33,716 nucleotides of DNA from Methylococcaceae bacterium (GTDB lineage Bacteria > Pseudomonadota > Gammaproteobacteria > Methylococcales > Methylomonadaceae): positions 1 to 33,716 of the forward strand of contig JAJRDU010000142.1 of NCBI GenBank assembly GCA_028748685.1, read 5' to 3'. A model generated the notes under the pieces. That model was not told the DNA's origin, did no database searches, and was given only the letters and a program-made list of their open reading frames with translations. The translations under genes and the position numbers were made by a program. Shown here one piece after another: positions 1 to 15,097 of the stretch; positions within the stretch are counted from its first letter, which is position 1, and the number at the start of each line of letters is the position of its first letter.

Positions 1-389
1 TGGCTCGTGACCACGGTCAAACCGTCGGCGTTGGCGGCGTCTTTGTCCAAGTTGACGCTGATAACGATGCCGTCTTCGTCGACTTTTTCCAATCCTTTAG
101 TTTCGCTCCGGCTGGGCAAACGCTGGACCAGCGTTTTACTGCCGGCGATTTTTTGCAACAGATAGGGTATCTCGACGCCATTCTGATCGATCAGGCGCAA
201 GTCGCGGAAATCCACTGCGCTGGCGGCATAGACTGCGCTATCCAAGGGCACGGCCAGCAAGCTTTGCTGTCCGCCATCCTGCCAGATAACCGACCGGCTA
301 AACCGATACCTTGGCCCATCGTCCGACGTGGCCGCGGCGATGGCTTGGATTAGAAACAGGCCGGCAATCAATGCTATTTTGGCAATCAT
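1..389 (-). CDS. DUF3999 family protein, 5' part (cut by window edge)
   Basis: The first 129 codons are visible on the minus strand; the rest lies left of the window. The protein starts [20 protein letters not shown], a typical Sec signal peptide, then a periplasmic beta-rich segment (RYRFSRSVIWQDG, RDLRLIDQNGVEIPYLL). This matches the N-terminus of DUF3999 proteins, which usually sit directly downstream of DUF2339 genes, as here. Its ATG shares an ATGA overlap with the DUF2339 stop codon (386-389), so the two are probably translationally coupled. The molecular function is unknown; the pairing suggests an envelope role together with the multi-pass partner. Confidence 0.75.
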   Translation of the reverse strand, partial: MIAKIALIAGLFLIQAIAAATSDDGPRYRFSRSVIWQDGGQQSLLAVPLDSAVYAASAVDFRDLRLIDQNGVEIPYLLQKIAGSKTLVQRLPSRSETKGLEKVDEDGIVISVNLDKDAANADGLTVVTS

Positions 390-2893
390 GAGGTTTTCTC
401 GTCGGCAGTATTGCCCATAAAGGTTTGTTGATAGCGCATATAGAAAAACGCGCCGCCCAGCGCCAGCATGCCCAACACGATGAAGGCCACGATACGGTAA
501 ATCTGCTCCAGGCGGGCCAGATCGATGAAAAACACCTTCCAGGCCACCAAGGCAAACAGCGCCAAACCGGTCAAGCGGAAGGCCGAGACTTGGCGCTTGA
601 TGCCGGCAAAAACCAGACTCAACGCGAACAGCGACCACAAGATAGACACGCCGCCGGAGCGCAGGCCAGGCACGTATTGATACAGCAAGGAATTGATTTC
701 CAGGCTCAGGAAGGCGAACAGCAAGGCCAACGCCGCACCGCCCAGCCATTGCCGGATGTTGCCGGCCTCTTCGCCGACGGACGACAAACGGCGGAACGCG
801 AACAGCAGAAAACCTATGATGGCCGCGAAATCCAGCAAGCGCATCAATGCCAATTGGAAGGAATAAGCGCCGCCGTAGCGCAAGGTCCAGACGCTATCGT
901 CATAGGCTATCCGTCCCAGGTCGATGTCCCAGGACGGCAGGTCGAACAGCAGCAGCTTGATTAACACGCCAATCAGAAATAGCCGCAAGGCTTGCAGCAA
1001 CCACACGCCGGGCGCGGCTAGATAACGCAGCAGCAACAGCAAGCTCATCGCCAGCCATACCAGCGTCAGTACCGGCAGTTGCAGCGGCGGATACAGATAG
1101 CCGAAGCTACGGTAAAGCTCCAATTGCAGCACCACGAACAGCATGCCGGCGACGGCTATCAGTATGGCTTGTAACAACCAATTATCCTTAAGCCACAACG
1201 GTACGTCGTTGCCGGCTTCGCAGGCCAGTTCGGAAGCCGGCACCGGTTTTTCGATCAATCTAAAGGCCAGTGCCAGCGAGGCAATCGGGATGCCGAAGCT
1301 GATCACCCTTTCCAGCAAACCCAGCAGAAAGTCGCCGAATGCTTGATCGCCGTCCATCGCCATGCCGTATTGTCCGGGCAAATCGATGAAACAGAAGCGA
1401 ACCAGCACGATCAGATATAGCAGATAGGCCACCTGCCGCAAGAACGCACTGCGCAATTTGCCGGCCATCCACAGCATCACCAAGGCCTGCAACGACCAGC
1501 TGACGGTAATCCATTGGTTCGACAGCAGCAGCGGCAAGGTAATGGTGACGAAGAAGGACGCCAGGCCGATAAAACTGACCAGCAACTCGCGGTCCGCCAC
1601 CCGCCGCGCCAGACAGTAATAGACATGGACTACATAAAACGCCGCCAGCGCCACGGTCAACAGGGCCGTCCGGATTTGCCCGTAAGCGTCGTCGATCAGA
1701 TCGTAGGCCGTCATGAAGAAGATAGCGGCATTGACGATCAGCGCCAGCAAATCCAGCAGCGTCGACTTAGTCCGGCTGACCAGACAGAATAGAAACACCG
1801 TGGTCGAATACAGCACGAAAAAGCCGGTTAAAAACGGCAGTACCTGCCAAAAATAGCCAACTTCGTATTTCTGCATAGCCCCGAAAAACAGCAGGTAATT
1901 GAAGAAAAAGCCCAAAAAATTCAGCAAATGCCATTGTTTGTACCAGTTGACGGCCAGGATGCCAACGCCTAACAAAAGCATGTAGCTGAACAGCCCTGGG
2001 AAATTGACTTGGCCGGTGGACAGCAGAATCGGCGTGCAATAGCCGCCGACGATGGCGAAAATCGCCACCAACATCGAATCCAAACGTATCGCCAATGTGG
2101 CCGCGCAGGCGGTGACCAATATCATCAAGGCAAAGGTCGGATAGGCCTCTATTAGATGGTAAAAGCTATGGGCGGCAAACACGCTGAAATATAGCACCGC
2201 GATACCGCCGCCCAGCAAGCCTTGGCTGAACAAATGATACTTGCCGCCAACCAGCCTTACGCCGCCGATGATCATCCCCACCCCGGCCAACACCGTCAGC
2301 GCCACCCGCGCCTGCTCGCCGAGCAAGCCGTTGTCTATCGAGTATTTCAGGAAGAAGCCAATACCGGTGACCAGAATCAACACACCGATCCGTAGCAGCC
2401 AGTTGCTGGCCACCGCATATTCCATCGCCACGCCTTCCGGCCTATGGCCTTCGCCGACGATGATCCAGTTCCAGATTTCCCGCAGGATTTGCTTGGCGGC
2501 CAGTTCGAAGCGGCTGGGTTCGGCGGGTTGCCGATCGGCTTTGGCCCAAGGGTTTTCGGGTGCAATAGCCGGGGCCGGTTCGGCGGCGGATTCCATGATA
2601 GCTTCCGTGACGGTTTCTTCGGCCCTAGGCTCTGGTTCGATGGCGGCTGGCGGCGGACTCTCGAACAGCACTCGCTCTATGCTGGACGCTTGAGGCTGAA
2701 ATATTGCCGGTTGCGGCGCTTCCGCAACCGGCGCGGAAGACCGTTTCGAAAATTCCCTCAACAGCTTGCGATCCTCGCGAAGCGCATCCTCTATTTTCCG
2801 CAGCGTCCGGGTGATTTCGTTCTGGTGGCGATTCTGTCGCGTCATCGCCACTACAAGGAGAATAAACACGATAAAACTGAAAAAATCGGCCAC
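386..2893 (-). CDS. DUF2339 multi-pass membrane protein
   Basis: About 835 aa. It has one N-terminal membrane segment ([16 protein letters not shown]), a charged coiled-coil (residues about 20-60), a Pro/Ala/Glu-rich linker, and then some twenty or more hydrophobic helices to the C-terminus, the layout of DUF2339 proteins. The longest open frame starts at 2944. I prefer the GTG at 2893 because a perfect AGGAG lies 8 nt upstream and translation then begins at the first membrane helix. The reaction is unknown. It overlaps the DUF3999 gene by 4 bp and is divergent from the yfa-like operon, with about 200 bp between start codons. Confidence 0.85.
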
Positions 2894-3020
2894 GGCAAAA
2901 CTCCTAGGCAGGGATGATCGGAAGTGTGGTTTATCGCGAAGCATAGCCGCTCACTGGCCAATTTACCATGCAGGCAGGCAGATCCAACTATGTTTATCCA
3001 CCCTGGAAAGTCCGACAGAT

Positions 3021-3092: not shown

Positions 3093-4622
3093 ATGCGGAT
3101 ATTTAACCTATTTTCCGGCCGACGGCTTGGACTCTGCGCTGCGCTGCTGTTGGGTTTTCCCATACTGGTTTCCGCAGCCCCTAGCGACGATCCGGACATA
3201 CTGGCTCGGCGCGGCCAGCAAAAACCGCCGCAAACCGCGTCCGCGCCGCCGACCATGACGCTGAGCCAACCGGCCGGCGGCTGGACCAGCGCGATGCAGA
3301 TCACCGTGGCCGGCACCTGTTCCGATCCCGCCGCCGATCCTATCATCGTCAACATCAACGGCGTGCGCTATTACGTGCGCAACGCTAACGGCAGTTTCGC
3401 CAGGGCTTTTCCGGCCGCCAAGGGCAAGAATACCGTGATCGCCGAATGCGCCAACAGCGCCGGCGCCGCCAAGGTCTCGACTACCGTAGATGCGGTGATT
3501 TCGCCTATCCCTCTGAAAGTGGTGCTGACCAGCGATACCGACGGCGTTTACACCGACCTGCACATTTACGAACCGGACAACAGCCACGTCTATTGGGCCG
3601 ACACCAACTCGGCCAGCGGCGGCATTTTCTTCTTGAACCAAAACGGCGATAACTTCGACCAACCCGGCTACGGGCCTTATTTATATGTACATCCCGCCCC
3701 TCCGGTTGGCGTGTTCCGCATCGACAGCAACTACTGGCCGGGCGGCGCGGTGCAGCATACCCTGGCCAATCTGGACATCATACTCGACGAAGGCTTGCCC
3801 ACCGAAAGCCGCCGCCGGATACAGAAACCGCTGGCCAGGCCCGGCGAAACCAAGACCTTCGCCTACGTGGTGATCCAGGGCAACCGCCAACCGGCGAAAA
3901 TCTACGTGCCCGGCCAGGACGCCGAGCGCGACATGCCGGCTGAAGTGAAGGAATACATCAAGCACGAACCCGTGCGCGAGGGCGAGGATGGCGGCGAAGA
4001 GATAGCTTATTTGTCGCCGCAAGACGAAACCGCATTGCGGCAGGCGGCTACCAACGTCGCGCTACTACAAGCCAAAAAGCTCAGCCCCTTGTGGGAACCC
4101 AAGCAGCGCGATTGCGCGGGACTGGTGCGCTTCGCCTACCGCACCGCCTTGGAACAACGCGACGCCGAACGCACCGCCAAAATCGGCATTCCGGCCAAGC
4201 TGAATCTGCCGTCCCTGTCCGAGCAGGCCAGGCAACTGTTTCCCCAATATCCCCAGATTTGGCAAACAGGTTTAGATAAAGGAAAGCCGCGTTTCGGCCA
4301 TTTCGCCGACGCCGAAACCCTGATCGGCTACAACTTCCGCCTGAAATCCCGCGAGCTGGAATCCGCCCGCAGCGGCGACCTGCTGGTCTATCAAAAACCC
4401 TTACAGAACGACGAGCCCTATCACTTGATGCTATTCGCCGCCGGCCGCTCCGAAAATCTGGCCGTCTACCATAATGGCGCGCAAGGCGACGAAGCCCAGG
4501 TACGGGTGGTGCGCATCAGCGAATTGCTGGAATCGCCCGACCCCGTGTGGATACCCCGCGCCGAAAATCCTTATTTCCTTGGAGTCTACGAATGGAACCG
4601 CTTACGCCCTCAAAACGCCTGA
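3093..4622 (+). CDS. YfaP-YfaT fusion: DUF2135 + DUF1175 secreted protein
   Basis: 509 aa. The ATG at 3093 has GGAGG 5 nt upstream and opens a signal peptide ([19 protein letters not shown]). Residues about 50-135 look like a beta-sandwich. Residues about 140-270 match DUF2135 ([28 protein letters not shown]), the YfaP domain. Residues about 330-505 match DUF1175, the YfaT domain, with [12 protein letters not shown] around Cys341 and YHLMLFAAG around His444. A Cys in a DCAGLV context plus a downstream His resembles NlpC/P60-type amidases; that catalytic reading is my inference. In Escherichia coli yfaP and yfaT are separate genes of the yfa cluster, so this is a fusion. It overlaps the next gene by 31 bp and heads a four-gene operon ending in alpha-2-macroglobulin. 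Confidence 0.85.
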
Positions 4623-6280
4623 TCGTGATCTCGGTGGCGGTTGCCCTGACCGCCACCGCCGGCATCGTCGCCTATCGCCAGTTATCGAAAGCACCCTTGA
4701 GCGGCATGCTGCGCGCCGATTTGCCGATGCTCGATCTGACGGTGAAACTGCGGGACGCCGATGATCAGGACCTCGACTCGTCCGGCTCAAGAATCGGCAG
4801 CAGCGATGAACCACCAACCGGCGACGAACATTGCCCGGCCTTGAGCGGCGGCGACATCGCTTCCGCCACGGTCGCATCGTCCGAGGTACAGCGCCCCGCC
4901 GATTGCCCGCGCCAGGCCGCCTGGTATATCAAAAAGCATCCGGTGGCCTTTACGCTGTATTTCAACCAGGGCGAAACGTTCCTGGCCTGGTGGGACAACC
5001 AGCCACAAATCAAGACCCTGGTCGACAACCGCTTCTCGCGGGGCCTGTTTTTCGGGCTGCTGCAAAGCCTGAAAGTCAAGGCCGAACAGCTCAATCTTCA
5101 AGGCTTGCAAGGCGAGTTTCTGGCTCACCTGCTGCGCGACGCCATCGCCGCCAACGCCGAACTGCATTACGACATGGCGCACGGCAACCGCGGCTGGGTG
5201 CTGAGTTATCTGCGCGGCGACAGCGAATTTGCCGAGCAAGCCTTACCGGCGATGGCCGGATTACTGGCCAGCAGCGGTTACCGCATCGCTAAACTGTCCG
5301 AGCCCATCCTGGAAATGAAAATCGGTTTTCAGCAATTTTTCCTGACCGAATATCAGCATCGCCTTTATCTGGCGCAAAGCCTGGAGGCCTTGCTCAACGT
5401 GATCGACAGCGTCGATCCGCTTTATAACCACTCTTCCGCCCCGCTGAACCTGACGGTCCGCGCCGAAGCCTTCATCGCCAATTTGCTGCCGGTACTGACC
5501 GGTTCGCCGAACCTGGACGCTCAATTTGATTTCGATCTCAAGGACGGCAAACTAGGCGCCTTGTCGCTGCCGTCCGGCCCCTGGAGCAAGCAGTTGCACG
5601 ACAAATTGTTCGAAGGCGTACTGGCCAGCATACCGCACGACGCCTTCGCCGCCGCCGCCGCGAGCATCCAACTCCCGCCGACCTTGACCGCGGACGACTG
5701 GCGCAAATTCGCCGAGGAAGGCCCGTCGCCAGCCGCGCCGAATCAAGAACCCGGCGGACTGGCCGTGGTCTGGGACTTCGACGCCGACAATCCGCGCGGC
5801 GCCGTCGGCGTGATCGTTGCCAATCCGAACCAGCCGCAAACCAGCCAGGCTTATCAACAATATCTGCGCAACGCCGAACTCAGCAGCGAATGCGCCGGCG
5901 GCAGCGTGTTCCTGGCCGCCACCTCCCAAGGTTTGCTGACCCGGATGAAGGAAGCCTGCGCCCATCAATCATTGAGCCCGCTGGATTGGCAGCGCGGTAG
6001 CGACAAACAGCGCCTCGAATCCTCGCAATTGATGACCTTCGTCAACCCCGGCGCCGGCATCCGCGAACTGTTCCTGGCCGGCGGCGCCGGCAATGCCAAG
6101 GACGCCAACGAGTTCGCCCCGCGCTGGCAACAGGATTACGAGAAGGCCAAGGCGGCGATGAGGGAGGATGGGGATAAGTTGTTTGCTAGTTTGCCGATTT
6201 TTAGTTATGCGGGGAGGGTTTCCGGGGGATCGGAAGTGAGTTTGGAGGGGAAATTGGTGGCGCAGGAGGTGGTGAAATGA
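4592..6280 (+). CDS. yfaA: YfaA-like DUF2138 protein
   Basis: 562 aa when started at the ATG at 4592, which has GGAG 7 nt upstream; a longer frame from 4547 lacks such a site. An N-terminal membrane anchor ([20 protein letters not shown]) is followed by a large extracytoplasmic domain. Segments such as [40 protein letters not shown] and [20 protein letters not shown] match DUF2138 (YfaA), the usual companion of YfaS-type macroglobulins. The start lies inside the YfaP-YfaT frame, and the stop forms an ATGA overlap with the next gene at 6277, so the operon is tightly coupled. The biochemical function is unknown. The last 120 bp are conspicuously G-rich compared with the rest of the gene. Confidence 0.8.
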
Positions 6281-7065
6281 AACTGATTTTGGGATGGTTT
6301 TTAGTTGTTAATCGGCTGTTTGTAGAGGGTGTCGCTATCGCGACGTTTTTTTTAACGTCGGTTCGCGGACCGACAGCCGCGATACTTTCTTTTGCGTCGC
6401 CAAAAGAAAGTATCCAAAGAAAAGGCGACCCGGATGCCGCTTTGATCCTGCGCGCCGAAGCTTTTGGCGAGGGTTTTCGGAAGGGCCATCCGTGGCCCTC
6501 CGAAAACGAGCGGCATCCTTGCCGCTCCCCTGATGGGCTGTTCTCGTCAAAAGCTCCGGTGCTCGGCGCGGCAAACGGGATTACAACCGCCACACTTACC
6601 ACTGTCATATGTTTATCGGTACTGGCTTTAGTGTCCTGGCCGAATAACAGTTTTGCCTGTAAATCTTTAGGTTCTCTGCCATCTTTTCCGTTAGAAGAAT
6701 TAAAAGAATACGACCAAATTTATGTCGTCAACGTCGAGACGGTGAACTACAGCAAGCCGCTTAATGAAAGTTGGTATGCACCCAATTTCGATTTTGAAGG
6801 CCGAATAGTGGAGGTTTTAAAGGGCACTGGAAAGTCCGGTGATATTATTCAGGGGGCTACAGACTCGACTCAAGAGCCTCACGCCAGATGTCCAATACTT
6901 TTAGAAGCAGGAAAAACCTATTTACTATTTTTGTTAGGAAATAGCTCACCTTATGTACTGCCTCGTTTTGGCTCGCTGCATATCCCATCCTCTGACTCGA
7001 GTTTTCGTCGATATGTTACAGATATTCGTCGTGCTCAAAAAAAGCGCCATAAAAAACAGCAATGA
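6277..7065 (+). CDS. Small secreted protein, possibly TIMP/NTR-like, with in-frame repeat in its 5' part
   Basis: The ATG at 6277 overlaps the yfaA stop (ATGA) and has AGGAGG upstream, so it looks like the genuine start. Codons about 18-101 are a copy of a dispersed repeat (6329-6578). The real exported part follows: hydrophobic core TTVICLSVLALVSWPNNSFA, then Cys128 as likely first mature residue and about 135 aa. The mature part (YDQIYVVNVETV; FEGRIVEVLKG; HARCPILLEAGKTYLLFLLG) resembles bacterial TIMP/netrin-type OB-fold domains, which begin with Cys. This assignment is tentative. A GTG at 6559 would give a normal signal peptide but has no clear ribosome site. Its place before a protease-trapping macroglobulin would suit an inhibitor. 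Base composition is more AT-rich than in its neighbours. Confidence 0.6.
   Translation: MKLILGWFLVVNRLFVEGVAIATFFLTSVRGPTAAILSFASPKESIQRKGDPDAALILRAEAFGEGFRKGHPWPSENERHPCRSPDGLFSSKAPVLGAANGITTATLTTVICLSVLALVSWPNNSFACKSLGSLPSFPLEELKEYDQIYVVNVETVNYSKPLNESWYAPNFDFEGRIVEVLKGTGKSGDIIQGATDSTQEPHARCPILLEAGKTYLLFLLGNSSPYVLPRFGSLHIPSSDSSFRRYVTDIRRAQKKRHKKQQ
6329..6578 (+). repeat. Dispersed repeat, copy A (inverted relative to copy B)
   Basis: About 250 bp running from GTCGCTATCGCGACG to TGCTCGGCGCGGCAAACG. It shares long near-identical blocks with the reverse complement of 7171-7486, including CTTTCTTTTGCGTCGCCAAA, AAAGAAAAGGCGACCCGGAT and the AGCTTTTGGCGAGGGTTTTC region. It contains internal hairpins, for example AGGGCCATCCGTGGCCCT. 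It lies wholly within the reading frame of the gene at 6277-7065 and has no stop in that frame. No transposase is encoded. Confidence 0.9.
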
Positions 7066-7094
7066 CACTCCAAATGAATATCGGAGGCAGGGAA

Positions 7095-10000
7095 ATGCGT
7101 AAGCAAAATTTAGTTATGAAAATCAATGTTACCAATGCCAACCCTGAGTTTGGGGAGGGTTTTCTCCCGTATGCCGCGCCGAGCACCGGAGCTTTTGGCG
7201 GGATCAGCCCGATAGGGGTGCGGCAGGGAGGCCGCTCGTCGGCGGAGGGGCTGGGAAGCCCCTTCTGCCGACCCTCGCCAAAAGCTTCGGCGCGCAGGAC
7301 AAATCGGCAGGATAGCCGATTTGCATGCGCAGCACCCGAAGGGCGAGGTACAGGGATGTACCGAGTGAACAAAGCGGCGTCCGGGTCGCCTTTTCTTTGG
7401 ATACTTTCTTTTGGCGACGCAAAAGAAAGTATCGCGGTTGTCGGTCCGCGAACCGACATAAACAAAACCGTCGCGGTAGCGACACAAAACCCAAACAGCC
7501 TGACAGCAATCATCAGCCACCTAATCCTGCTCACGACACTGCTAATACCGCTAAGCGCCAACGCCGGCAGCCCCTTCTACCTCACCGCCGAACGCAGCTT
7601 CAGCAACACGGAATCCCCCAACATCCGCCTGGACTACACCCTCACCGACCAACCCATGATGATCCGGGTACTGAAGGCCAATAACCTGGAAACCTTCCTG
7701 GACGGCCAGTTCAACGTCAGCCGCAGCTACGAACAACCGGTCAGCGAGCTGAATCCCGGCCATTATTTCGCCAAGGGCCTGAACGCCGCGCAATCGCCGC
7801 TGAAACTGTTTCGCGGCATGCTGGATGTCGAATTCCGCAAATCCTTGAAGGAAACCAACTTCGGCGGCTCGGTGCTGACCGTCACCGAAAAGCCTTTAGT
7901 GTCGGTGCCTCAGCAGATTCTGGTCGCCCCGCCTTCGGGTTTTCAGGTGGTCAAGGAAAACTATCTGGATTTGCAACATAACGGCCAAACCACTCAAGAT
8001 TTAGGCTGGTGGTTCGGCCAGGATACCTGGAGCGAGCAACGCTACAAAACCCGGCAAATCGCGCTGGAACCGCTACCCGACGGCATCTATCTGCTGCAAG
8101 CGGTGCAAGGCAAGACCGAAGCCCAATGCCTGATCCAGGTCAGCAGCTTAAGTATCCAGATCAAGCAATCCAGCGAACAGTTATTGGTGCGGGCGATCAA
8201 CCGCGACTTGCAACCCGTCGCCAACGCCAAGGTCAGCTACCGCGACGGACGCGGCCGCTGGCAAGCCGTACCGGAAGCCACCAACGCCGCCGGCGAACTG
8301 AGCTTTAAAAACCCCGAAGGCGTACTGGACGGCAAATTGCTAGTCCGGGTCGACGCGCCCGCCGCCAAGCCCGGTGAAGCGGTGCGCACCGCGCTGACCG
8401 CTACTGATTTCCTGCCGACCCAGGCCAAGGACGACTCGGTATTCGTCCTCACCGACCGGCCCATCTTCAAGCCCGGCGAGACCTTTTATTACAAGGGCAT
8501 CGTCCGCAATTTGCAGGACGGGCAGTTGAAAATTCCGGCATTCCAGTCCCGGCAAACCGACGTCTCGCTGATCCGAGCCGACGGCAACGCCACCGGCCTG
8601 CAAGGCCAAACCGCGCTGACCGATTTCGGCTCATTCTCCGGCAGCTTCGACCTCGATCCAGGCCAGACGCCCGGCCTGTACCGCCTGTTGGCCGAGATCG
8701 ACCACAAGGCCTACGGCGGCGAATTTAGGGTTCGCGATTACATCAAGCCGACCTTTTACCTGGAATGGCTGGATAGAAGTCCGGTCGTACAAGCCGGCCA
8801 GCCGTTCAACTTGAAATTCCGCGCCAAGCGTTACAGCGGCGGCGTGCCGCAGAACGTCAAATTCGAGGTGTTCCTGTACCGGAAAAAGTTCGAGGCACCG
8901 CAGTTCGTCATGGAGGCCGGCGCCGGTTTGGCGGCAGGCAACGACTATTTCGGCGCGGTCAAATCCGCCGCGCCCCTGACCCAGCCGCAACGGCTGTTCA
9001 GCTCCATCGAAGAGCGGCAAGCCGCCGAGCTGAGCAATCCCTGGGAAACCGCCGCCAAGCTGGACGACAACGGCGACGGCAGTTTCGAGTTCACCGTGCC
9101 GGCGGGCGATAAGGAAAAAGCCGATCAGGAGTGGATATACACGCTGATGGTGCGCGCCCAAGATCAAAGCGGCGGCATGGCAATCCTGACCGACAATCTT
9201 TACGCCACCCTGTCGGAAGCCCAGCCGGCGCTGAGCTTCAACAAAACCGTGGCGGCGGTCGGCGATCAGGATTTGCAGTTGCTGCTGCAATCCAACTATA
9301 GCGATGGCAAGCCTGCGCCTAAGGCCGGCGGCGTAGTCGACGTGATGCTGGAACAACCCGGCACGGCTAAGCGCAACCTGGTGAAGCTGGATTTTGCCAC
9401 CGACGAGCGCGGCCAGCAGAGATTGACGATTCCGGCCTTGAAAGAATTCGGCCGGCTCACCGCTGTCGCCCGCCTGGAAACTCTGGATGGCCGCAGCCTG
9501 AACCATCCCGCCAGCTCCCAGCCCAGCACTTTGATCGTGGCCGGCAGCGGCGGCGAAGCGGTGGCCGACAATCCGGAACTGGAGTTGTACACGCCGACCA
9601 CCATCCTCAGCCCCGGCGAGCAAGCCAAGGTCTTCGCCTTGCTGCCCAAAGCCTGGGGTAACAACGAGAGCGGCCCGGTCTGGGAAACCGTGGCCGGCTC
9701 CCGCTTGTTCGACAGCCGAGGCAGCCAAATGCAAGGCCGCAGCCGCTGGTTCGAAGTCACCGCCAAGCCCGAATACGGCACCGGCTTTTACCACACCGTC
9801 ACGGTGCCGGTGGCCGGCGGCAAATACAAGGAGCAAACCTTAGGATTTAGAATCGTGCCCAAGGAGAAGCGCCTGCAAATCGCCATCCAACCGGAAAAAG
9901 CCGAAACCGAACCCTTGAAACCCACCAAAGTCAAGCTGGAAGTGAAACGCGCCGACGGCAGCCCATCAGCCAATACCGAATTGGCGGTGTCCATCGTCGA

Positions 10001-12353
10001 CCGCGCCGTGTATGCGGTGCAGGCCGAATTCCGTCCCGGCATCTTCGACTTTTTCTACCCTCTGCAACGCAGCAACCTGTCGACTTACTATTCCGACGAC
10101 CTGCAAGGCTACGGTTACGCCGACTTGCTGCGTAAACCCAACTTCGCGCTCAACGCCCTGAAAAGCCAGAGCAAGCTGGCGAAGAAAGCCATGCGCGACA
10201 CCGCCGGCTGGTTTCCGCATGTGATCACCGATGCCGACGGTATTGCGACCATAGATGTCGAGATGCCGGCCAACATCACCGAATGGCTGGTCACCGCCGT
10301 CGCCAGCGACAAGGACGGACGGATCGGCGAAACAACCGGCCAGTTTCGTAGCGTCACGGACGTGGCGGTAGACATGGTCGGCCCGCAGTTCTTGCGGCAA
10401 GGCGATGAAGTGGAATTGGCCGTGAAGCTGACCAACCATCTGGCCGAGCCGGTAAAACTGGCGGGCAACATTGGTTTGCCTGATACCTTGCAATTACAGA
10501 GTGGAGAGATAGCACCGAAAGCCGAAATGGCCGGCAAGGCCGAACAATTGTGGCCCTTGCATCTGACCACAAATGGTAGCCAAGGCACGGCGGCCTTTAA
10601 GGTCGGCTTGAGCGCGCCGGCGAATGTCCGGGTCGGCGGTGCAGAGGAATTTGAGATTCCATTAAAAGCCGCCGCGCTGCCGCAAGTCTATAGCAGCAGC
10701 CAGCAGGACAATCTGTTGCGTATCGATTTGCCTGCCGAGGCTACGCCGCGCCAAGTCAGCGTCCGCGTCAATTCCGGCTTGCTGGGAGCCTCGCTGCAAG
10801 CGGCGGCAATGCTGGTGCAATACCCTTACGGCTGCACCGAACAGCTGGCGCACAGCACCGTGCCGAATCTGGTGCTGCTGGATCTGATCGAGCGAGCCGG
10901 CCTGAAACCCGAGCAATTGGGACCTCTGGAAAACACCTTGAAACGCGCCAAGCAAAACGCGGCGCTGGGCATACGCAAGCTGATCCAGAACCAGAAGGCC
11001 GACGGCGGTTTCAGTCTGTGGCCCGGCGACAGCGAAGCCAGCCTGCCGGTGAGCCTGATCGCCATGCAAGCCTTGAAATACGCCAACGACCTGCAACTGG
11101 AAGGTGTCAACAGCGCCTATTACAAAGGCACGGAATGGCTGGCAACCCAGGCCAACGGCAATATCCCGCTCGACGGCTTCGCGCTGGCCGGCTTTGCCTT
11201 GACCGGCACCGGCTATCAGTCGCCGTGGCAACAACAGGCCGATTTCGTCGCCAAGGTCGCCGGTGATGCCAATGCCGGAACGGCCGATCTGGTCGCTGCG
11301 TTGCGCATATTCATGGCCTACGAAAAACAAAGCTGGCACAGCTTCAACCAGCAGTTCAAGGACCAGCCGCAGCTGAAAACCAACTTGGCCAAGCGCTTGC
11401 AGCAAGCCCTGGAAGCCATCGACCCGGCCAATTACCAGCAAAATCGGGGCGAGCTATATAAACAACTCGGCTTCGGTTTCGGCCTGCCCAGCCTGATTTC
11501 CTCTGGTTTGGGCACGCTGAACGACGCCCAGGCCTTGCCGCCGGAATTGGAAACCAAGCTGAAACGTTGGTTGCTGCAAACCCAGAAAAACGGCTACTGG
11601 ACCTCGACCTACGACACCGCCCAGGTGATCTTCAACAGCCGCGAACTGCTCAGCAAGGAAGCGGCGACGGCCGGCAAACAGAAAGCCCGCACCCTCACCG
11701 CCAGCACCAAGAACGGCTTCGCGCTGGGCAACTTGGCACGCATCCCCGGCGGCTATCTGGGCAATTTCAGCCAATTCGGCGACAGCCCCGATCTGAGCGA
11801 AATCCGCATCGGCGAGCTCAATGCCGACGAAATCGCCAGCGCCACGGTAGCGGTCGAAGTGCCCTATCAAGCCGTCGCCGCCCGCGCCGCGGGCCTTGAT
11901 GTACAACGCAGCTTCCGCCGCATCACCGCCAAGGGCAGCGAACTGTTCGACATGAGCCAGGCCTTGAAACCCGGTGATGTGGTGGTTAGCGAAGTCCGCG
12001 TCAAACGCACCGCCGACGCCGGCCGCCCTGCCCCCGGCAGCGAGTTCGTGGTAATCGAGGACGGCATCCCCAGCTTGGCGGAAGGCCAGGAAAACGACCA
12101 GACCTATCTGGCCGACGCCAAGATCCAGCCCAAGGAGGACAGCTACTGGGCCAACATCAAGGAAACCCAACGCTTCCCGGACCGCATCGTCCGCGTCGCT
12201 AAGCTACAGCCCCAAGGCGAATTGACTTTGTATCAGGTCTGGCGGGTCACTAGGCCCGGCAACGCCGCGATTCCGCCGGCGACCGGGTTCGATATGTATA
12301 ACGAGGCGGTACAGGGGAATACATCCTCTGCAAGAGTAAGTGTGGTGAAGTAA
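7095..12353 (+). CDS. yfaS: Alpha-2-macroglobulin family protein (YfaS-like) with intact thioester
   Basis: 1752 aa from the ATG at 7095, which has GGAGG 7 nt upstream. A bacterial protease-trapping macroglobulin of the periplasm. The family traps proteases after bait cleavage, using an internal Cys-Gln thioester. Visible here are successive MG-type beta domains, the segment FVLTDRPIFKPGETFYYKGI, the pre-thioester segment VITDADGIATIDVEMPANI, and the thioester motif YGCTEQ with Cys about 1247. E. coli YfaS is shorter. No lipobox is seen: the signal peptide (SLTAIISHLILLTTLLIPL, then SANA) lies at residues about 134-158, not at the N-terminus. The first 130 codons include repeat copy B (7171-7486) in frame. 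No ATG, GTG or TTG lies in frame between the repeat and the signal peptide; the closest starts are ATG 7356 and GTG 7365, inside the repeat. Last gene of the operon, 29 bp after its neighbour. Confidence 0.9.
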   Translation: MRKQNLVMKINVTNANPEFGEGFLPYAAPSTGAFGGISPIGVRQGGRSSAEGLGSPFCRPSPKASARRTNRQDSRFACAAPEGRGTGMYRVNKAASGSPFLWILSFGDAKESIAVVGPRTDINKTVAVATQNPNSLTAIISHLILLTTLLIPLSANAGSPFYLTAERSFSNTESPNIRLDYTLTDQPMMIRVLKANNLETFLDGQFNVSRSYEQPVSELNPGHYFAKGLNAAQSPLKLFRGMLDVEFRKSLKETNFGGSVLTVTEKPLVSVPQQILVAPPSGFQVVKENYLDLQHNGQTTQDLGWWFGQDTWSEQRYKTRQIALEPLPDGIYLLQAVQGKTEAQCLIQVSSLSIQIKQSSEQLLVRAINRDLQPVANAKVSYRDGRGRWQAVPEATNAAGELSFKNPEGVLDGKLLVRVDAPAAKPGEAVRTALTATDFLPTQAKDDSVFVLTDRPIFKPGETFYYKGIVRNLQDGQLKIPAFQSRQTDVSLIRADGNATGLQGQTALTDFGSFSGSFDLDPGQTPGLYRLLAEIDHKAYGGEFRVRDYIKPTFYLEWLDRSPVVQAGQPFNLKFRAKRYSGGVPQNVKFEVFLYRKKFEAPQFVMEAGAGLAAGNDYFGAVKSAAPLTQPQRLFSSIEERQAAELSNPWETAAKLDDNGDGSFEFTVPAGDKEKADQEWIYTLMVRAQDQSGGMAILTDNLYATLSEAQPALSFNKTVAAVGDQDLQLLLQSNYSDGKPAPKAGGVVDVMLEQPGTAKRNLVKLDFATDERGQQRLTIPALKEFGRLTAVARLETLDGRSLNHPASSQPSTLIVAGSGGEAVADNPELELYTPTTILSPGEQAKVFALLPKAWGNNESGPVWETVAGSRLFDSRGSQMQGRSRWFEVTAKPEYGTGFYHTVTVPVAGGKYKEQTLGFRIVPKEKRLQIAIQPEKAETEPLKPTKVKLEVKRADGSPSANTELAVSIVDRAVYAVQAEFRPGIFDFFYPLQRSNLSTYYSDDLQGYGYADLLRKPNFALNALKSQSKLAKKAMRDTAGWFPHVITDADGIATIDVEMPANITEWLVTAVASDKDGRIGETTGQFRSVTDVAVDMVGPQFLRQGDEVELAVKLTNHLAEPVKLAGNIGLPDTLQLQSGEIAPKAEMAGKAEQLWPLHLTTNGSQGTAAFKVGLSAPANVRVGGAEEFEIPLKAAALPQVYSSSQQDNLLRIDLPAEATPRQVSVRVNSGLLGASLQAAAMLVQYPYGCTEQLAHSTVPNLVLLDLIERAGLKPEQLGPLENTLKRAKQNAALGIRKLIQNQKADGGFSLWPGDSEASLPVSLIAMQALKYANDLQLEGVNSAYYKGTEWLATQANGNIPLDGFALAGFALTGTGYQSPWQQQADFVAKVAGDANAGTADLVAALRIFMAYEKQSWHSFNQQFKDQPQLKTNLAKRLQQALEAIDPANYQQNRGELYKQLGFGFGLPSLISSGLGTLNDAQALPPELETKLKRWLLQTQKNGYWTSTYDTAQVIFNSRELLSKEAATAGKQKARTLTASTKNGFALGNLARIPGGYLGNFSQFGDSPDLSEIRIGELNADEIASATVAVEVPYQAVAARAAGLDVQRSFRRITAKGSELFDMSQALKPGDVVVSEVRVKRTADAGRPAPGSEFVVIEDGIPSLAEGQENDQTYLADAKIQPKEDSYWANIKETQRFPDRIVRVAKLQPQGELTLYQVWRVTRPGNAAIPPATGFDMYNEAVQGNTSSARVSVVK
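7171..7486 (-). repeat. Dispersed repeat, copy B (inverted relative to copy A)
   Basis: About 316 bp, the reverse complement of copy A, with an extra internal stretch of roughly 65-70 bp (about 7300-7370) containing a GATGTACC-type segment. It is open in the alpha-2-macroglobulin frame and also open over most of its length on the opposite strand. Together with copy A it brackets the small secreted-protein gene in an inverted-repeat unit of about 1.16 kb. Confidence 0.9.
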
Positions 12354-14578: not shown

Positions 14579-15097
14579 ATGAAACGATCAACAAAAATCC
14601 TCATAGGGCTCATATCCATCTTGCTGCTCGGCTTCCTGGTGCCGGAACGGATCAGAATTCCGGTAGTCGGCGCGTCAAAGCAGGACTGGAATCAGGTGTC
14701 TTTTTGGTTTGAGCCTTGGGGCACTTCCGGCGTGCATAAGGGTATCGACATCTTTGGCAAGATAGGCACCGGCGTGACCAGCACCACCGATGGTATCGTG
14801 TTGTATGCAGGTCAAATCAGCAAGGGCGGCAATGTCGTCGTGGTCTTGGGACCGAAATGGCGGTTTCACTATTTCGCACACCTAAACACCATCAACGCCT
14901 CGATGTTCAGTTTTGTTAAATCAGGCGGCGTGATCGGTACGGTCGGCGACAGCGGCAATGCCAAGGGAAAACCACCTCATCTGCATTATGCTATCGTCAG
15001 GTTGATTCCGGCGCCTTGGGCGATGGACGGTTCCACCCAGGGCTATAAGAAAGCGTTTTTTATCAATCCCAGCGCCTATCTGAGCGGTCAAATATAG
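14579..15097 (+). CDS. M23 family peptidoglycan metallopeptidase
   Basis: 172 aa. An N-terminal signal or anchor (ILIGLISILLLGFLVPE) precedes a compact LytM/M23 domain. The zinc ligands are visible: His53 and Asp57 in GVHKGIDIFG, and His136 in PPHLHYAI, with His101 (YFAHL) and His134 as catalytic histidines. The family cleaves peptide cross-links in peptidoglycan and acts in the periplasm. The fold is minimal, with no LysM or coiled-coil region. It lies 68 bp after the 4-TM gene on the same strand, giving a Tae4, 4-TM, M23 order. The ribosome site is weak (AAGAG 7 nt upstream). Confidence 0.85.
   Translation: MKRSTKILIGLISILLLGFLVPERIRIPVVGASKQDWNQVSFWFEPWGTSGVHKGIDIFGKIGTGVTSTTDGIVLYAGQISKGGNVVVVLGPKWRFHYFAHLNTINASMFSFVKSGGVIGTVGDSGNAKGKPPHLHYAIVRLIPAPWAMDGSTQGYKKAFFINPSAYLSGQI

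Follow-up and report, generated by a model that had tools for sequence, protein, structure and literature searches.

Inverted repeat arms upstream of an alpha-2-macroglobulin gene as the probable ends of a cargo-exchanging cassette in Methylomonadaceae

The DNA analyzed here is a stretch of 33,716 nucleotides (the window), contig C142 (JAJRDU010000142.1) of the draft genome of a Methylococcaceae bacterium (GCA_028748685.1, here G000; 3.68 Mb in 337 contigs, 77% complete), the genus of which was taken as Methylomonas. Two copies of one repeat, A and B, lie in opposite orientations upstream of and within the 5' end of an alpha-2-macroglobulin family gene. A and B are best explained as the inverted arms of a single Methylomonadaceae cassette, which has fixed insertion places (docks) and an exchanged cargo, and which keeps the reading frames through its arms open at the macroglobulin dock; we put the probability of this reading at about three in four. 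Throughout Methylomonas, many such cassettes appear to sit at fixed chromosomal places with the inner gene swapped. A first-pass annotation of the window had described A and B as oppositely oriented copies of one repeat, and this was borne out by a repeat search and by a repeat profile (6329-6579 on the plus strand, 7165-7485 on the minus strand). It overlooked the cassette itself, of which A and B form the ends and whose cargo changes.

The macroglobulin dock and its repeat

The dock upstream of the macroglobulin gene was compared in 21 genomes (G000 and 20 fetched genomes), and the inverted pair was found in nine of them: G000, G001, G003, G011, G019, G021, G025, G026 and G027. G000 and G021 had a common cargo protein (70% over 138 aa, tblastx), and G001 and G019 a second one (58% over 137 aa). 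A third was common to G003 and G011 (best piece 44% over 41 aa; E = 4e-37). The cargo of G026 was a 427-aa open reading frame (ORF) unlike the other cargos, and the spacers of G025 and G027, 129 and 271 bp long, contained no ORF of 45 aa. In the macroglobulin tree, strong support was obtained for G001/G003 and G000/G027 as sister pairs, so that the cargo contradicts descent. Presence of the cassette required four changes on the 22-row tree, and the arms were no closer between genomes with a common cargo. By eye, a possible in-frame scar of the outer end of arm B (GCGATAGCG...) was seen before the macroglobulin signal peptide at the G028 junction (L078), where the profile gave no repeat. Signal peptides were called by eye throughout, with no predictor used.

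The features of the dock in the window are listed below.

4547-6280, plus strand: upstream partner gene, 577 aa, conserved left-hand neighbour of the dock
6277-6279, plus strand: ATG overlapping the upstream TGA; opens the frame through arm A; possible translational coupling
6329-6579, plus strand: arm A, full-length 251-bp repeat copy with its outer end on the left (profile boundaries)
6559-6561, plus strand: in-frame GTG at the inner end of arm A, possible start of the cargo ORF, also in G021
6577-7065, plus strand: cargo ORF, family unassigned, with a signal-peptide-like stretch
7062-12353, plus strand: alpha-2-macroglobulin family ORF, signal-peptide-like core directly after arm B
7095-7097, plus strand: ATG with a GGAGG Shine-Dalgarno sequence, before arm B; best macroglobulin start candidate in the window
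7165-7485, minus strand: arm B, inverted copy in frame with the macroglobulin gene
7310-7365, no strand: extra segment of arm B, holding ATG 7356, with GTG 7365 at its edge

The repeat search of the window paired 6314-6447 with 7367-7500 (90% complementary) and 6446-6594 with 7151-7299 (81%). Arm B, at 321 bp, exceeds most copies by about 69 bp and matched the profile in two segments, 7165-7309 and 7366-7485; the extra segment between them was missing from arm B of the other eight species at this dock. Extra segments of like kind, with an ATG, were seen in arms at three docks of three genomes (window 7310-7365, L162 7018 and L192 4668). Relatives of the cargo ORF were found in two of the 37 Methylomonas genomes, the window genome and G021, in each case at the macroglobulin dock. 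By eye the cargo protein presumably resembles TIMP/NTR proteins; the predicted structure (mean pLDDT 42) was too poor for use.

The annotation had proposed that copies be counted in the genome and its relatives. The repeat was indeed a dispersed family, with 52 matches in the window's own draft genome (40 of 72 candidates scored), which is not chance; among the element edges of three genomes, forced in-frame copies were peculiar to the macroglobulin dock. The consensus is about 251 bp long, begins with GTGTCGC and forms a string of hairpins (fold -75.7 kcal/mol; DNA fold z = -9.0). Eighty-five copies from three genomes were combined into a profile of 251 positions. At E <= 1e-3 it matched 34 of the 37 genomes of the genus set, some weakly, and 67 of the 151 genomes of the family set, covering 16 of 29 genera. 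Across the class, 42 of 369 genomes had matches, mainly to a shorter core, and a convergent pair was present at four of 11 new loci from that search (L284, L285, L286 and L290).

Conserved docks and differing cargo

Pairing was analyzed in 59 regions fetched from three genomes and in the window, where 124 copies scoring 40 or more were counted. Neighbouring couples less than 3.5 kb apart were convergent, with the GTGTCGC ends outward, in 47 of 57 cases (the others were 4 ++, 4 -+ and 2 --), an excess with p of about 1e-19 against an expectation of 1/4. When the G000 contigs, which had been picked for several copies, and the window were left out, 42 of 49 couples were convergent by hand count. 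Spacers ranged from 152 to 2907 bp and 40 of the 47 were at least 500 bp long. The mean GC content was 0.427 for cargo, 0.535 for flanks and 0.589 for arms. Two ends of one cassette were scarcely closer to each other than random copies.

A Pfam family was assigned to eight of 20 scanned cargo proteins, that of the window included: Mrr (two), HNH, KAP NTPase, GNAT, LprI, DUF1152 and Y1 transposase. The KAP protein also matched PDC-S20, a candidate defence model (E = 5e-154), and one of the Mrr proteins a type IV restriction model. The HNH-domain cargo protein of L150 (4920-6524, minus strand) showed a weak match to Cas9 HNH models (E = 4e-7). Transposase-like genes were present in five of the 47 cassettes, L151, L152, L165, L168 and L176 (REP-associated tyrosine transposase, RAYT, by search; IS110 and IS256 by eye). 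RAYT genes (NF047646) were located inside the G021 cassettes L165 (4293-4829, minus strand) and L151 (5049-5795, minus strand), and by DNA match in L176 of G026, the RAYT half of which matches L165 while the other half of its cargo differs. L151 and L152, both of G021, hold a 1.27-kb block that is 99% identical and includes the IS110-like gene. In L158, L178, L185, L193, L179, L170 and others, clusters of short GTAG...hairpin...CTAC repeats lie just within the arms, at the inner ends of the cargo; they fall into several families and by eye look REPIN-like.

The fixed position of the docks was studied by comparing the 23 convergent cassettes of G021 with the fetched G026 regions; 20 of the 23 had matching flanks there and three had none. 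A convergent pair was found in 19 of the 20 flank-matched regions, once with a partial arm. Flank coverage was at least 80% in 32 of 40 flanks and lower in eight, two of these with 5% or none. For cargos longer than 500 bp, 12 of 15 were covered under 30% by the G026 region, with a median of 5%; the better covered ones were L147 (0.76), L165 (0.48, the RAYT half) and L159 (0.39).

The flanks of eight docks were also joined and searched against the genus; by hand count among the matches listed, 32 cases outside G021 had the two flanks in the right order and no more than 5 kb apart. Among these listed matches the flanks were 0.9-4.2 kb apart in 26 cases, 0.18 kb in one and 0.58 kb in one, and nearly contiguous in four (G031, G005 and G006 at dock 158; G017 at dock 163). 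Eleven of the 32 cases were fetched: all five long ones held a pair and the four contiguous ones none; a single copy was found in the 0.58-kb case and a remnant of 62 bp in the 0.18-kb case. L273 (G002) is a lone 62-bp remnant of the outer part of an arm at an otherwise empty dock.

Pieces of 13 cargos were also used as queries and returned 30 loci, 13 of them with a repeat within 1.5 kb. Four of the 13 were the query cassettes, seven lay at the same dock and two at another dock. The DUF1152 cargo of dock 193/170 (G026, G003, G012, G007) was found at dock 157/179 in G001 (L234; identified by one flank). Likewise, in G011 dock 173 (L217; identified by both flanks) held the lipoprotein-like cargo known from dock 147/187. 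The remaining 17 loci, chiefly relatives of the cupin cargo, had no repeat nearby, so that cargo families also exist outside cassettes.

Identity along the arms was calculated in 50-bp bins from the outer to the inner end. For 35 orthologous arm pairs of G021 and G026 it was 0.86, 0.86, 0.89, 0.93 and 0.93, and for 2557 non-orthologous pairs 0.83, 0.84, 0.77, 0.81 and 0.84; the inner arm parts are thus the most site-specific. Crossovers within the inner half of the arm were considered as the route of exchange and rejected, as the predicted inward loss of site identity was absent and the reverse trend was observed. In the ungapped alignments listed, homology often ended at or near the inner end of the arm, and in several pairs continued for tens of bases.

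These data also bear on a different explanation, that the elements are terminal-inverted-repeat transposons, mostly without a transposase of their own, that were moved as whole units in trans, possibly by a RAYT, the docks being old insertions. The hairpin-rich arms and the RAYT genes within L165, L151 and L176 would suit such elements, and so would the L234 cassette, which aligns outer edge to outer edge with its relative at the other dock, as any two arms would. Whole-unit insertion does not predict docks that are common to species but hold different cargo, and the inner arm parts stay with the dock. By eye, no target-site duplication was seen at the macroglobulin-dock junction or at four empty sites, which are from divergent species. 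We regard this explanation as unlikely.

In the cassette reading, the unit would be arm, cargo and arm, with hairpin-rich arms of about 251 bp, GTGTCGC ends outward and a low-GC filling of usually one or a few genes. From the sequences we infer that exchange would take place by homologous recombination in the arms or through a RAYT-like enzyme. Homologous recombination or gene conversion would be the main route, the arms serving as portable homology and incoming DNA as the source. Broken cargo could be repaired from another cassette and unlike tails trimmed back to the arms, which would leave the homology pattern observed.

Several observations weigh against the cassette reading. Copies outside convergent pairs made up 30 of the 124 (94 inside), and a convergent pair was present at just nine of 30 loci from the family search with flanks of 1.5 kb. 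L173, one of the 12 unmatched cargos, faces a single copy and no pair in G026, and spacers shorter than 500 bp were mostly common to both genomes (four of five covered 77-100%). Among the 12 genomes without a pair at the macroglobulin dock, the upstream partner gene was present in just four (G014, G028, G033 and G035), and the clean empty-site comparison is limited to these because the partner gene is still there. Alignments across arms cannot tell exchange within arms from movement of whole cassettes, because the arms are a repeat family. The evidence for exchange is comparative throughout, across genomes, with no recombination event observed; the missing target-site duplication counts here as well, and no recombinase was identified.

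Reading frames through the arms

At the macroglobulin dock the cassette is predicted to split the 5' end of the macroglobulin reading frame, with a start coupled to the upstream gene on one side and the signal peptide on the other. It had been claimed that the host frames are open through both copies, and this was confirmed: the frame of ATG 6277 crosses A and continues into the ORF that stops at 7065, and the frame of ATG 7062 crosses B and continues into the macroglobulin ORF, which stops at 12353. Both the A frame and the B frame were open in nine of nine species, at a mean divergence of 15%. The ATG overlapping the upstream stop was present in all nine, and its frame was open through A in eight; a Shine-Dalgarno sequence precedes it in G027 (GGAGGTG) and G025 (AGGTG). 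In every one of the nine species the macroglobulin frame extends back to an ATG, which lies before B or at its inner edge; in G027 and G025 one open frame runs from the coupled start across A, spacer and B. Two species, G025 and G003, have a frameshift in the inner third of arm B compared with the other seven, but the shifted frame is still open as far as an ATG upstream.

The claim that no ATG, GTG or TTG lies between B and the signal peptide held in the window, where none is found from B as far as the mature macroglobulin protein; the same applies to G003, G019 and G021. Two alternatives had been offered for this gene, a long leader before the signal peptide or a start inside the repeat. The openness of both arms in all nine species makes translation of the arms at this dock probable, and ATG 7356 and GTG 7365 were not supported as starts. 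Ribosomes that begin at the coupled start, or at an ATG preceding B, would traverse the arms. Selection would act on openness alone, the leader being discarded with the signal peptide; open frames may be retained so that the neighbouring secreted-protein gene stays expressible and translation of the operon continues.

The open frames could have another origin, in which the arms are an untranslated leader, open by chance, and the macroglobulin protein starts after B, at a non-canonical codon or inside the signal peptide. Among 110 other full-length copies of the family the A frame was open in 34 and the B frame in 21, so that openness also occurs elsewhere. Other docks seldom keep their frames open: when G021 and G026 were compared at 17 of these docks, openness had lasted in 36 of 91 cases over six frames, in two of 17 for the A frame and in six of 15 for the B frame. 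The nine-of-nine openness at 15% divergence, the single open frames of G027 and G025 and the four of nine species lacking any start after B also disagree with chance, which we consider rather improbable here.

Translation of the arms is, on the other side, opposed by a number of results. The open A frame of G003 is reached from other start codons only, and the starts before B in G001, G019 and G021 have weak Shine-Dalgarno sequences. In the other five of the nine species the signal peptide itself, or its edge, holds one to three possible start codons (GTG, TTG or ATG); their positions vary between species, except that G025 and G026 agree. No purifying selection on the peptide was detected, pN/pS being 1.2 for A (eight species) and 0.89 for B, not below background. 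The openness was no more than moderately improbable in a neutral simulation without indels (A 0.03-0.14, B 0.007-0.06); the species are, besides, related to one another. Selection on the arm-encoded peptide is thus not supported by pN/pS, and we read the data as openness that is kept while the peptide sequence is not.

A family of mobile in-frame peptide inserts, resembling the Rickettsia palindromic elements, had been suggested by the annotation, and the nine-species openness at the macroglobulin dock is what such inserts would give. ORFs of at least 120 aa leading outward and entering the element by at least 20 aa were found at 11 of 116 element edges in three genomes. Three of the 11 are the macroglobulin dock in the three genomes (in G026 with a GTG four codons outside), and each of the other eight has a start codon lying beyond the repeat, at a distance of 8-28 codons. 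The Rickettsia elements are recognized by their in-frame presence in many protein genes that are unrelated to each other, a pattern not seen across the 116 edges. Forced in-frame arms are peculiar to the macroglobulin dock and not a family trait, and the usual unit is a paired cassette with cargo. A family of in-frame inserts is extremely unlikely.

The repeat had further been proposed to donate start codons to downstream genes. ATG 7356 has a GAGGT Shine-Dalgarno sequence six bases upstream, and the insert that holds it recurs in L162 and L192. GTG 6559 is in frame with the cargo in the window and in G021, and could be the start of the cargo ORF in both. Start donation to the macroglobulin gene is unsupported because the other eight species have no insert in arm B, the very segment in or at the edge of which ATG 7356 and GTG 7365 lie; nor do they have a conserved start inside B. 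The other cargo ORFs listed mostly begin within the spacer. Start donation is accordingly very unlikely as the role of the repeat.

As for the neighbouring genes, Pfam and NCBIfam scans of the upstream gene (4547-6280) gave no match; the names yfaA and yfaS, which we take from E. coli, are presumed for the two neighbours. An Rfam search of the window at the gathering score gave no match. The window also encodes a DUF2339 membrane protein (386-2944, minus strand) and a protein (14579-15097, plus strand) with matches to peptidoglycan metallopeptidase models that fell short of the model cut-offs.

Comparison with known systems

To our knowledge, no system has been described in which many fixed docks share one kind of inverted arm and exchange their cargo, and no account of such cassettes in Methylomonas was found in the open-licence literature. 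The cassettes offer a concrete and testable explanation of how individual accessory genes could be gained and lost at constant chromosomal positions with no integron or resident transposase involved; many orphan genes of methanotroph genomes may be explained in this way. With the arm sequence known, docks and cargo boundaries can be predicted in genomes of the family. The macroglobulin dock suggests how a disruptive insert before a signal peptide may be tolerated, the frame being open and the leader removed by processing. More tentatively, and as a possibility rather than an expectation, the Methylomonadaceae and perhaps other Gammaproteobacteria could have a chromosome-wide plug-in system with dozens of fixed docks, in which shared inverted arms are recognized by a dedicated recombination mechanism. 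Individual genes of horizontal origin, encoding defence nucleases, secreted proteins or membrane proteins, would pass between docks and species, and some docks in operons would be kept translatable so that neighbours survive the exchange.

Mobile insertion cassettes (mic) consist of a passenger gene between inverted repeats, usually without a transposase inside. Passenger genes are described for them, for instance for the qnrD mic (PMC3913671). The Methylomonas cassettes are similar in having a passenger gene between inverted repeats, in most of the 47 cases without a transposase-like gene. Unlike in mic, the arms are long (251 bp), hairpin-rich and present in dozens of copies per genome, the docks are conserved across species and the cargo is replaced inside lasting arms. 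Integron gene cassettes likewise consist of low-GC accessory genes, whereas the Methylomonas docks are dispersed and have inverted arms on both sides. The minimal mobile elements of Neisseria and the switching of mating-type or antigen cassettes share conserved flanks, a variable filling and replacement by homologous recombination. The difference is that in Methylomonas the homology is a repeat common to many docks, and for this reason cargo can change dock.

Repeats that are open in frame within genes are described for the Rickettsia palindromic elements (PMC10969869) and the enterobacterial RU elements (PMC2759123). In-frame open repeats inside genes are the common feature, and the differences are that the Methylomonas repeat is forced in frame at one dock and is the arm of a cassette. 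The arms are not REPINs, which we take to be short inverted hairpins of the GTAG type, since they are about 251 bp long and begin with GTGTCGC. The REPIN/RAYT system is nevertheless similar in its hairpin repeats, in the RAYT genes of some cassettes and in the GTAG-type repeats at inner cargo ends; the Methylomonas arms differ in flanking cargo and in being much longer than REPs.

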